Positions 1 through 51,215 of a stretch of DNA of 64,000 bases are shown here, piece after piece. The DNA comes from Pectinatus cerevisiiphilus (lineage in GTDB: Bacteria; Bacillota; Negativicutes; Selenomonadales; Selenomonadaceae). The DNA lies in assembly GCF_004341685.1 (NCBI RefSeq), contig NZ_SMAA01000001.1:1-64000 (forward strand), given 5' to 3'. The first letter of the stretch is position 1; every line of letters begins with the position of its first letter. Both the position numbers and the translations under genes were made by a program. A model generated the notes under the pieces. The model was not told the DNA's origin, ran no database searches, and saw only the letters and a program-made list of their open reading frames with translations.

Positions 1-95
1 AATTATTGGGATATAAAACTCCTCAAGAAGTATTTTTAGAAGAAGTTAGGCAGTTAGTGGATTTACAAACTGTTCAATTTGATATTGCAATTTAA
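1..95 (+). CDS. IS30-type transposase, C-terminal end (partial)
   Basis: The open frame entering from the left edge (frame beginning at base 3) encodes about 30 residues and stops at 93-95. It reads LLGYKTPQEVFLEE near its start, which matches the end of IS30-family DDE transposases, where the segment after the catalytic core ends in GYKTPxEVF. Only the tail is in the window, so completeness cannot be judged. The next gene lies 420 bp away and is unrelated. The family call rests on this short motif alone. Confidence 0.7.
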   Translation, partial: LLGYKTPQEVFLEEVRQLVDLQTVQFDIAI

Positions 96-40101: not shown

Positions 40102-41274
40102 ATGAACTCAATGGAACTAAAATATGGCTGTAATCCTAATCAAAAACCAGCCAGAGTATTTATGAAGGAAGGAGAACTTCCTTTCAATATTCTTAACGGA
40201 CGTCCTGGTTATATAAACTTACTGGATGCCTTCAATAGTTGGCAGTTAGTACGCGAATTACGCGAAGCCACCGGACTGCCGTCAGCCGCTTCCTTCAAGC
40301 ATGTCAGTCCTGCCGGTGCAGCTGTCGGTCTGCCGCTTTCTGATTTATTGAAGAAAGTATATTTTGTAGAAGGTATAGAATTGACCCCGCTAGCAACAGC
40401 TTATATCCGGGCACGCGGAGCAGACCGTATGTCTTCGTATGGAGATTTTGCAGCCTTATCTGATGAATGTGATGCAGCCACTGCCTCTTTCCTGGCTCGT
40501 GAAGTTTCTGACGGAATAATAGCCCCATCTTATTCTCCCGAAGCACTTGCCATCCTGAAAAAAAAGCGTAAAGGCAACTATCTTATAATCCAGATGGACA
40601 AAGCTTACCATGCCCCTGAATTAGAAAGAAAAGAAGTTTTTGGCATAACCTTTGAACAAAAAAGAAATAACATCAAAATTACGGAAGATCTTTTACAGCA
40701 ACTCCCTACGGTCAACAAGGACTTACCCGCTGCTGCAAAACGTGATCTCATTATTGCGCTTATAGCTCTCAAATACACCCAATCCAATTCTGTATGCTAT
40801 GCCAAAGACGGCCAAGCTATCGGCATCGGTGCAGGCCAGCAGTCACGTGTCCATTGTACCCGACTTGCCGGCAATAAAGCTGATATCTGGCATTTACGCC
40901 AACATCCTAAAGTGCTTGCCCTTCCTTTTAAGAAAGATGTTCGCCGTCCTGATAGGGATAATGCCATAGATCTATACATTTCTGATGAATATATGGATCT
41001 ATTTACAAATGATGCCTGGAAAAATGTATTTACGGAAAAACCACCTATTTTAAGCAAAGAAGAAAAAATAAACTGGCTCGCCTCCGTAACCAATACCGCT
41101 CTTGCCTCGGATGCCTTTTTCCCTTTTGGTGACAACATTGAACGTGCACATAAAAGCGGCGTAAAATACATAGCTCAAAGCGGCGGCTCTATCCGTGATG
41201 ATAATGTTATCGAAACCTGTGATAAATATGGTATAGCCATGGCTATGACCGGTGTCCGTCTCTTCCATCATTAA
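40102..41274 (+). CDS. Stand-alone AICAR transformylase (phosphoribosylaminoimidazolecarboxamide formyltransferase)
   Basis: 390 residues matching only the C-terminal transformylase half of PurH; the IMP cyclohydrolase domain is absent. It adds a formyl group from 10-formyltetrahydrofolate to AICAR in purine synthesis. The catalytic Lys-His pair is at 66-67 in FKHVSPAG; bifunctional PurH has KHxNPCG here, so the motif differs as in the short clostridial-type enzymes. GGGAG precedes the ATG. It is transcribed alone toward the DnaA-box region. A separate cyclohydrolase must be encoded elsewhere. Confidence 0.88.
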   Translation: MNSMELKYGCNPNQKPARVFMKEGELPFNILNGRPGYINLLDAFNSWQLVRELREATGLPSAASFKHVSPAGAAVGLPLSDLLKKVYFVEGIELTPLATAYIRARGADRMSSYGDFAALSDECDAATASFLAREVSDGIIAPSYSPEALAILKKKRKGNYLIIQMDKAYHAPELERKEVFGITFEQKRNNIKITEDLLQQLPTVNKDLPAAAKRDLIIALIALKYTQSNSVCYAKDGQAIGIGAGQQSRVHCTRLAGNKADIWHLRQHPKVLALPFKKDVRRPDRDNAIDLYISDEYMDLFTNDAWKNVFTEKPPILSKEEKINWLASVTNTALASDAFFPFGDNIERAHKSGVKYIAQSGGSIRDDNVIETCDKYGIAMAMTGVRLFHH

Positions 41275-41319
41275 CAAATAATATCTTGTGGTTTCACTAT
41301 AGATATTTCCTTCACTATA

Positions 41320-41375
41320 AAAAAGAAGAATTATCCACAGTTTTTTTTACAAGCTTGTGGATAATTCTTCTTTTT
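41320..41375. terminator. 20-bp-stem terminator built from two DnaA boxes
   Basis: AAAAAGAAGAATTATCCACA (41320-41339) is perfectly complementary to 41356-41375, ending in T5. Each arm contains one perfect DnaA box (41331-41339 and 41356-41364). It terminates the AICAR transformylase gene and could also present paired boxes to DnaA. Confidence 0.8.
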
Positions 41376-41591
41376 ATATTTTAGTGTAAATTATTTATAT
41401 TTCCTAAATCCTAGAAAATCCTTATAGATCAACGATCAGCAAATTATTACCAAAAAATTTTTGTTATTTTTTATTTATATATGTACTTGTGGATAACTTT
41501 GAAAGTTACCTACAAATTATCAACAGCTTTCTTCCCTTATTCAGAGTTTATCCACAATTTTTGAACATTTCCCTGTGGACATTGTGGATAA
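41331..41591. other. DnaA-box cluster in a convergent gene-free gap (possible origin part or DnaA-titration site)
   Basis: Five perfect TTATCCACA boxes in 261 bp: 41331-41339 (+), 41356-41364 (-), 41488-41496 (-), 41548-41556 (+), 41583-41591 (-), plus TTATCAACA at 41517-41525 and a weak one at 41574-41582. An AT-rich block (41441-41486) sits beside box 3. Genes on both sides point into the gap, so no promoter is needed here. About 8 kb from dnaA. Confidence 0.75.
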
Positions 41592-41703
41592 CTGAATATA
41601 ACATTTCAGTTTTCTAAAATATCATACCCGAAATTTTCCATAAGAATACGTTAAACACGACCTACATTATATTCTGTCCAACGCTAAGCTGATAATAATT
41701 TTT

Positions 41704-42411
41704 TCATAAACTTACATTAAATACCCGATCCAGAAAGTCTCTGGCTTGTACATCCATGCCACTGGATTTAGTATCAATTCCCACCAAATTTTCTTTTGTG
41801 GCCATCACCGCATTAAATATTGTTTCTTCGACACTGCCGGGAATAATATCTTCCCAATTTTTCACGGAGTACAAATTTTGCGTCACATTGTTAGATGGCT
41901 GACCCACAACATCTAGCTCACATAAGAATTGAATTTGGCGTAATTCTGGACGTATGTAATAATGGTCCAACAAATAAGACTGATCAGGAGAAACATTTGA
42001 GTATTTTTCAGCGGGTGCATTTACTTTATTCGCATCTATCAGCTGAATCCATACATCCATTATTTTTCTATTACTATTCGGTTCAAAAATCCAGCGGGCT
42101 GAACGGCGATCAAGATAATAAAAAAACCGGCTGTCTTTCGCAATAAGGACAAATCGCTTTTGGTCAGCTTCACTAGCCTGATCTATTTTTTTAAATACTT
42201 TATCATCCTTTCCATTTGTTGTAGTCGTTTTTTCCGCCTCGTCCTTTACCGGTTCCTGTGGTTCTTGCAACTCCTGTGTATTCTGAGCTACCTGGGGCTG
42301 CGTACTTATCACTGGTTCTGAATCTATTGCCGCTGACGGAAGAGCTGCAAAACAAAGTCCTGAGCTAAATAAAAAACTGATGCATACTGCCATTAAAATA
42401 TATTTGCCCAT
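41704..42411 (-). CDS. Secreted or envelope protein of unknown function
   Basis: 235 residues from the ATG at 42411 (GGGAGGGG upstream; a longer in-frame start at 42453 is unlikely). An N-terminal signal peptide ends near LCFAALP, followed by a low-complexity Gln/Glu/Pro/Thr linker (about 25-70) and a folded domain with DSRFFYYLDRRSARWIFEP and a late EETIFNAVMA. Surface-protein domains of this shape are common in Negativicutes, but I do not recognise a named family. The gene follows rsmG at 100 bp on the same strand. Confidence 0.7.
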   Translation of the reverse strand: MGKYILMAVCISFLFSSGLCFAALPSAAIDSEPVISTQPQVAQNTQELQEPQEPVKDEAEKTTTTNGKDDKVFKKIDQASEADQKRFVLIAKDSRFFYYLDRRSARWIFEPNSNRKIMDVWIQLIDANKVNAPAEKYSNVSPDQSYLLDHYYIRPELRQIQFLCELDVVGQPSNNVTQNLYSVKNWEDIIPGSVEETIFNAVMATKENLVGIDTKSSGMDVQARDFLDRVFNVSL

Positions 42412-42517
42412 ATATTCCCCTCCCATATACATTAATTTATAATTATTTATCATATATAATAAATATTATTCTAAAGTAATTATTCAATGCAGCTCATTAG
42501 CCATTAGCAATTGTTCT

Positions 42518-49189: not shown

Positions 49190-49485
49190 ATATCCACATA
49201 TTTATCCACATATTTTAAAATTATCCACATAACTTATCAACAACCTTATAAATACCTAACTAATCAGTATTTTTTCCTTTAAAATATTTCTCTAGCCCCC
49301 AAATACAGGACTTTAGAAAATTTAAAGTTATCAACAACTGTGCATAACTTTGTGGATAACTTTTTTTATTCAATAAAAGCTGCTTAATCAATATTTATTA
49401 CAAGGCTTAAATATTTCCTCATTTTTATATGCGCACCACGCGTCATTTTCTTATATATATTTATTAATAATTATTACATAGCCAG
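49190..49485. other. oriC: oriC, part 1: DnaA boxes upstream of dnaA
   Basis: Between rpmH and dnaA. Perfect TTATCCACA at 49202-49210 (+), 49221-49229 (+) and TGTGGATAA at 49351-49359 (-). Variants are at 49190-49198, TTATCAACA at 49234-49242 and 49328-49336, and TGTGCATAA at 49339-49347. An AT-only stretch lies at 49450-49485. This corresponds to the upstream half of bipartite Firmicute origins and probably also autoregulates dnaA. Confidence 0.9.
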
Positions 49486-50983: not shown

Positions 50984-51215
50984 TTATCCACAAAATGTGT
51001 ATTATATATGTATAATATGTTAATTATCTGTGCATAAAAACGAATAATTTCTTTTAATGTGCACTTGTGGATTAAAAAGGTGAACTTATCAACAAGTTAC
51101 TAACACCAAAGAACCTTACCCACAACGATAAAAACATACTTATCAACATGTTCACAGCCCCTACGACTACGACGACTAACTTTATATAAATATATATTAA
51201 TAATAAATAAGGAGA
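50984..51215. other. oriC: oriC, part 2: dnaA-dnaN gap with DnaA boxes and unwinding region
   Basis: Boxes: TTATCCACA 50984-50992, TGTGCATAA 51029-51037, TGTGGATTA 51066-51074, TTATCAACA 51086-51094 and 51140-51148, TTACCCACA 51116-51124. After a GC patch (GCCCC) comes CTACGACTACGACGACTA (51161-51178), a triplet-repeat stretch like the DnaA-trio, then an AT-only tract to the dnaN SD. This is the B. subtilis order of boxes, GC patch, trios and unwinding element. Confidence 0.85.

Follow-up and report, generated by a model that had tools for sequence, protein, structure and literature searches.

An element of opposed DnaA boxes outside the replication origin of Pectinatus, a candidate DnaA sink that recurs in the Selenomonadaceae

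The gap between two convergent genes of Pectinatus cerevisiiphilus holds a real, conserved DnaA-box element that is not an origin of replication. It lies in the window, by which we mean the whole 64,000-nucleotide stretch analyzed (assembly GCF_004341685.1, contig NZ_SMAA01000001.1, positions 1 to 64,000), where five perfect TTATCCACA boxes and two variants fall within 261 bp at positions 41331–41591. We put the probability at roughly 0.6 that this is an oriC-proximal, geometry-constrained predicted DnaA-binding locus that would limit the availability of DnaA in the way of the extra-origin clusters of Bacillus subtilis; more broadly, the element probably serves as a genuine DnaA sink or switch and not as a second origin. 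The features are as follows.

40102..41274, + strand: purH-like AICAR formyltransferase (NF005492, PRK07106), the upstream convergent neighbour
41275..41703, no strand: convergent intergenic gap holding the element, 429 bp, 27% GC
41320..41375, no strand: 20-bp perfect inverted repeat with a 16-nt loop and one DnaA box per arm
41331..41339, + strand: perfect DnaA box 1, a TTATCCACA match
41356..41364, - strand: perfect DnaA box 2, opposed to box 1 at a start-to-start distance of 25 bp
41380..41487, no strand: AT-rich block, 19% GC, its sequence poorly conserved among Pectinatus
41488..41496, - strand: perfect DnaA box 3, also present in G005, G034 and G067 but not in G054
41517..41525, + strand: variant box TTATCAACA, which is TTATCAACA or TTATTAACA in other Pectinatus genomes
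41548..41556, + strand: perfect DnaA box 4, core box A
41574..41582, - strand: degenerate box TGTGGACAT (ATGTCCACA on the - strand) with two mismatches, at core position C (+26)
41583..41591, - strand: perfect DnaA box 5, core box D (+35)
41704..42453, - strand: putative secreted protein ("SP gene"), secretion being read from the N-terminus
49190..49359, no strand: origin part 1, the rpmH-dnaA box cluster (for comparison)
50984..51182, no strand: origin part 2, dnaA-dnaN boxes and a DnaA-trio-like CTACGACTACGACGACTA run (from 51161) beside an AT-rich stretch (for comparison)

An earlier note on this DNA had described the boxes, the variants and the AT-rich block in a convergent gap about 8 kb from dnaA, and all of these were located: the purH-like gene on the + strand ends at 41274, the SP gene on the - strand ends at 41704, and the last box is 7,975 bp from the dnaA start. 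No Pfam or NCBIfam family matched the SP gene product. Chance would give 0.0064 perfect boxes per 261 bp, in line with the note's estimate of far below one, and the Poisson probability of at least five is 9e-14, or 9e-10 once multiplied by the number of windows. The draft genome (2.63 Mb, 47 contigs) contains 65 perfect boxes as opposed to 40 for the reversed word, and in the genome-wide list 41331–41591 is its densest perfect-box cluster, with five perfect boxes against three and one in the two origin halves.

The comparison with close relatives that the note had proposed showed that boxes, perfect or variant, are kept in the same gap in all four other Pectinatus genomes examined. The five main boxes are perfect in G005, G034 and G067, while in G054 the core pair is retained, the hairpin boxes are of the TTATCAACA type and box 3 is lost; the box at core position C has one mismatch in all four. 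When the five Pectinatus genomes are aligned, 50 of 72 columns in boxes are invariant vs. 38 of 214 elsewhere, and many of those 38 belong to the hairpin arms. The hairpin had been read correctly from the window alone, its arms at 41320–41339 and 41356–41375 being perfect complements, and it occurs in 5/5 genomes, the RNA folding at −24.9 to −27.9 kcal/mol. In G054 both arms have undergone a paired change to TTATCAACA/TGTTGATAA, itself a box variant.

Position relative to the origin was examined using GC skew, as the note had also suggested. The cumulative skew in the window drops to a minimum at 51–52 kb and then climbs, placing the switch at dnaA-dnaN and not in the gap 41275–41703. A DnaA-trio beside an unwinding element is a mark of an origin. 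Using a regular expression of our own for the trio pattern, we found an 18-base CTACGACTACGACGACTA run at 51161, and in the gap 41275–41703 the same scan gave 9-base runs only. The gap element is not the origin. A subtler possibility, raised in the note as the remote arm of a tripartite origin, is that DnaA-mediated looping brings the element to dnaA-dnaN, where it would serve as a third arm of oriC on which full origin activity depends. It lies only 8 kb from dnaA, its opposed and phased boxes could bridge, and looping is known for the bipartite oriC of B. subtilis (PMC5295017, in the part of the text available). We nevertheless consider this arm improbable, given where the skew minimum and the trio lie and given the relatives in which element and origin are separated. 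In G053 (g3), contig C7 carries dnaA (145.6–147.1 kb) while C8 carries the SP-gene element at 2056 kb, with 85 kb or more between it and the end of that contig; the element of G017 is likewise on another contig than oriC. Conversely, G103 and G043 have box groups on both sides of dnaA, yet none 3′ of the SP gene. Since the G053 element sits on a contig without oriC, it follows the SP gene and has no obligatory close oriC neighbour, and the element is probably not an obligatory origin arm. G053 also has box clusters about 22 kb to either side of oriC, at C7:122873–123146 and C7:168830–168926, the latter about 2.5 kb from a displaced mnmG.

Across the Selenomonadaceae, the element is found 3′ of the SP-gene stop codon in 13 genera. 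The SP gene was matched in 109 of 121 family genomes, and 91 of these were examined (93 rows, G020 and G072 appearing twice), the 18 others being 6 of g8, 10 of g12, G026 and G065. An opposed pair, defined as two boxes with at most 1 mismatch in all, no more than 60 bp apart and within the first 450 bp past the SP stop, is present in 39/91 genomes and 13/24 genera, and at least two boxes in any arrangement in 46/91. Perfect boxes fall away steeply with distance from the stop: 103 in 23.0 kb at 0–250 bp (4.5/kb), 10 in 22.9 kb at 250–500 bp, 6 in 44.7 kb at 500–1000 bp and 2 in 68.4 kb at 1000–1800 bp (0.03/kb), with the reversed-word control giving 0 in every bin. The opposed pair is absent from this place in 52 of the 91 genomes, among them every examined g4, g5, g6, g8, g9, g12, g18, g19, g24, g28 and g29 genome, so it is not essential at the SP-gene 3′ end across the family. 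G004, G009, G038 and two g18 genomes have no pair, but do have boxes otherwise arranged or further out, and in G026, outside the 91, a pair lies 92 bp beyond the matched part of the SP gene.

This attachment to one gene raises the possibility of a role in transcription, with DnaA bound between the convergent genes blocking or terminating transcription and tying SP expression to the DnaA level. In each of the 13 genera no more than 450 bp separate the pair from the SP stop, even where the purH-like gene lies over 2 kb away (four g16 genomes and G015), and two of the Pectinatus boxes sit in the hairpin, which has a T-run, folds stably in all five genomes and shows the paired change in G054. Against it, a separate and ordinary terminator-like hairpin can be seen by eye in the same gap of other genera (e.g., L060), SP genes lacking the element are common (the 52 above), and a scan of the gap returned no terminator, although its loop limit excludes the hairpin, and 5 promoter-like sites compared with 3.5 in shuffles. 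On balance such a role seems quite unlikely. No canonical promoter or terminator in the gap was convincing in the scan. The gap was also searched for RNA families, and the 12 Rfam matches (E ≤ 1), mostly to microRNA models at the hairpin, all scored below the gathering scores and were attributed to chance.

The boxes are arranged in two recurring geometries. Type I has boxes at 0(+), 12(+), 25/26(-) and 45–47(-) and is found 3′ of the SP gene in g3, g16, g17, g21, g30 and others, one position often being degenerate or missing. Type II is a palindrome, 0(+), 9(+), 26(-), 35(-); three Pectinatus genomes (G034, G054, G067) have it complete, with no box exceeding 1 mismatch. In the window its outer boxes are perfect, the box at +26 carries two mismatches and a box at +9 is absent. 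The 35-bp outer pair also lies 3′ of the SP gene in Mitsuokella G017. In a hand-picked profile set of one to four sequences per genus, among the long pairs a + box at +12 is present in 18/28 and a - box at +25/26 in 17/28 (at most 2 mismatches, either reading), and 11/18 of the shorter pairs have the +9 box. Opposed 35-bp pairs with inner box-like words also occur at G103:447310, G010:C3:60182, G053:C2:906803 and G017:C17:26487; these four come from different genera and have the outer spacing of the Pectinatus core, and no shared flanking protein was found for them.

The spacing is helically phased. In 20 genomes, one per genus, we collected 93 opposed perfect pairs (TTATCCACA...TGTGGATAA, 1–62 bases between), a set that includes origin pairs and pairs sharing a box and is therefore not fully independent. 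Their lengths are solely 20–25, 31–35, 42–46, 53–56, 62–67 and 74 bp, and the best period is 11.17 bp with R 0.745, where the maximum of 300 uniform random sets was 0.327. Collapsing to one pair per length per genome left 80 pairs with R 0.722, and the backward-read control pattern gave 0 in the same 20 genomes. Pairs with 4–34 bases between are present in at least 97 of the 121 family genomes; the backward control for these is found in 3 genomes (G007, G038, G082) among the matches listed.

Outside the family the picture is different. Of 80 loci, 50 had parA placed on the expected side of rsmG and were not labelled Selenomonadaceae, and in 47 of these 50 there is no perfect box between rsmG and parA, including Anaerospora (L080), Lucifera (L082), Phascolarctobacterium (L086) and Veillonella parvula (L109). 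The exceptions are L092 with one box, L152 with two and L125 with five in 7.6 kb. In L125, a Lachnospiraceae MAG, the boxes are 343–2785 bp past rsmG, and in L152, Clostridium thermobutyricum, they are 592–637 bp past it. The box-free loci, together with the lack of anything longer than 9-base trio-like runs in the gap, speak against the note's suggestion of a moved ancestral origin segment. The box-free loci also weigh against the least favoured explanation, that the boxes are a neutral or selfish repeat or have hitch-hiked from an old origin. Clusters do adjoin different genes in different genera, as a repeat of this kind would. However, boxes are retained while the intervening sequence diverges and a common phase is held across 20 genera, and we regard neutrality as very improbable.

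The element is not alone in the genome. The note had called it the third DnaA-box cluster, which is right as to a cluster being there but not as to the count, for at least three further non-origin clusters are on the same contig (contig 1), near 88, 218 and 258 kb (L003, L001, L002), some 38, 168 and 208 kb from dnaA. The complete Pectinatus genome G067 has clusters at about +53, +161 and +192 kb that adjoin the same genes as these three, a correspondence between the Pectinatus cerevisiiphilus genome (G000) and G067 established by BLAST with one flanking protein each. From sequence resemblance we take the adjoining genes to be a rubredoxin-like gene, a DAK2/YloV-like gene and an Nramp-like/MgtC-like pair. 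The three G000–G067 Pectinatus pairs were the only cross-locus links among the flanking proteins, and the type II palindromes of other genera had no common neighbours among the flanking proteins compared. In five complete genomes, the distance from oriC to 13 non-origin opposed-pair sites averages 0.11 of the half-chromosome, with a maximum of 0.34. In a separate observation, isolated TTATCCACA words in G103 and G101 look replichore-polarized, being mostly - on one arm and + on the other; all 8 words between 74 and 1062 kb in G101 are - among the matches listed, and in G103 the word is about 10 times as frequent as the reversed control (90 vs. 9, among the matches listed to 2.33 Mb).

Opposed boxes in a fixed non-coding array are also what is seen in E. 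coli DARS1 and DARS2, and the element could be a catalytic site of the DARS or datA kind, where a head-to-head DnaA complex would alter the nucleotide state of DnaA through ADP release or ATP hydrolysis. According to the available text of PMC5742627, DARS has three core boxes, with I opposed to II and III and the same spacing in DARS1 and DARS2, and head-to-head boxes I and II are a hallmark of these sites (see also PMC8682772, in part). Reading MG1655 by the published description, we placed the boxes at 813107+, 813121-, 813133- and at 2969135+, 2969149-, 2969161-, both giving 0+, 14-, 26-. The recurrence of spacing between genera is what a specific complex would give, and three of six g3 genomes (G053, G066, G075) carry exactly this arrangement on the other strand, sharing the 14/12-bp core spacing. 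Pectinatus has 0+, (9+), 26-, 35- instead, and the window, with 0+, 26-, 35- and 0+, 25-, does not contain the DARS core. At no more than 1 mismatch per box the exact core is limited to the three g3 genomes out of 91, with three more (G032, G082, G092) 1 bp off at 13 and 25, making 6/91; the triple occurs in only 6 of 28 type I sequences (hand-made set, at most 2 mismatches), and opposed triples (0+, 11-, 23-) are also found in family origins. DARS1 and DARS2 are far from oriC (PMC5295017, in the portion available), as opposed to 8 kb for the Pectinatus element. E. coli datA is closer in this respect, being a box cluster near oriC that lowers active DnaA, a comparison of how the sites would work; its essential boxes share one direction (PMC5742627, as far as the accessible text goes), whereas the window has boxes in both. 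In the E. coli datA stretch itself, at no more than 1 mismatch, three of four boxes are + (4392677, 4392744, 4392906) and one is - (4392918). What survives of the note's datA/DARS-like proposal is thus the titration or regulatory kind of site, and not the single direction of datA or, in Pectinatus, the DARS spacing, which some g3 genomes do have. A catalytic site appears rather unlikely; the DARS-likeness is only a lead, and we do not claim that the element is a DARS.

The closest match is with the DnaA-box clusters (DBCs) of B. subtilis (Okumura 2012, via the available parts of PMC5295017 and PMC13220808). As there, several boxes occupy a non-coding region outside oriC, there are several such clusters, and both sets likely lower free DnaA, which for Pectinatus we infer. 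The gcp/ydiF cluster is likewise downstream of both its neighbours (PMC4447404, in part). The neighbouring genes differ from those of the Pectinatus element. The two are likened by description, and the B. subtilis clusters are known from deletions while the Pectinatus element is known from its sequence. The Selenomonadaceae boxes differ further in being largely opposed, helically phased and kept over the family. In B. subtilis, removing six extra-origin clusters leads to early initiation, an effect that becomes strong only with the loss of all six (PMC5295017 and PMC13220808, available sections), and about 10-fold overproduction of DnaA occurs without over-initiation (PMC13220808, same limitation). 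A Streptomyces cluster outside oriC that represses untimely initiation (Smulczyk-Krawczyszyn 2006, as described in the accessible portion of PMC5742627) can also be likened to the element by description.

If the element is a DnaA sink, as we favour, it might operate as follows. DnaA would bind the consensus boxes, as the motif predicts, and opposed, phased boxes would set DnaA molecules head to head on one face of the helix, which may form a compact closed complex on duplex DNA that does not unwind it, instead of a filament extending to a trio. Because the site is 8 kb from oriC it would be duplicated right after initiation, offering extra high-affinity sites; the doubled sites would draw DnaA off the new origins and delay re-initiation, and the three other clusters, no more than about 210 kb from oriC, would strengthen this retention. 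Against a sink, plain titration would not require a fixed geometry, and oriC-proximal dosage does not predict that the element stays with the SP gene even off the oriC contig (G053). YabA was not found in the Pectinatus genome by a search that does find it in B. subtilis and Lactococcus. For Hda, no match in the Pectinatus genome exceeded the cut-off, the search returning a 31.8-bit AAA+ match besides DnaA, and this result carries little weight as only 1 of 14 control genomes passes the cut-off. The usual protein inhibitors of DnaA may thus be absent from the Pectinatus genome, with the same reservation for Hda.

A literature search found nothing joining Selenomonas with a DnaA box or Pectinatus with a replication origin, and among the titles and abstract openings seen (in part the top matches) on extra-origin boxes, Firmicutes DARS and helical phasing, the element was unreported. 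The element, its geometry recurring across the family, offers a short DNA sequence that can be tested directly with purified DnaA, and the natural spacing variants (22/23, 35/36 and 45/46 bp) provide a ready test series for helical phasing. According to the available part of a 2026 review (PMC13220808), B. subtilis lacks datA and DARS, and whether any regulator balances DnaA-ATP and DnaA-ADP there is not known. A bolder and doubtful proposal is that the Selenomonadaceae control initiation largely via cis-acting sites, in which head-to-head, phased boxes would build a complex that switches DnaA activity or nucleotide state. These would be a Bacillota counterpart of DARS and datA that evolved independently, in two interchangeable architectures (0, 12, 25, 45 and 0, 9, 26, 35) about one helical turn apart. 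The element bears on whether bacteria of the Gram-positive lineage possess DnaA-handling DNA sites other than passive sinks.
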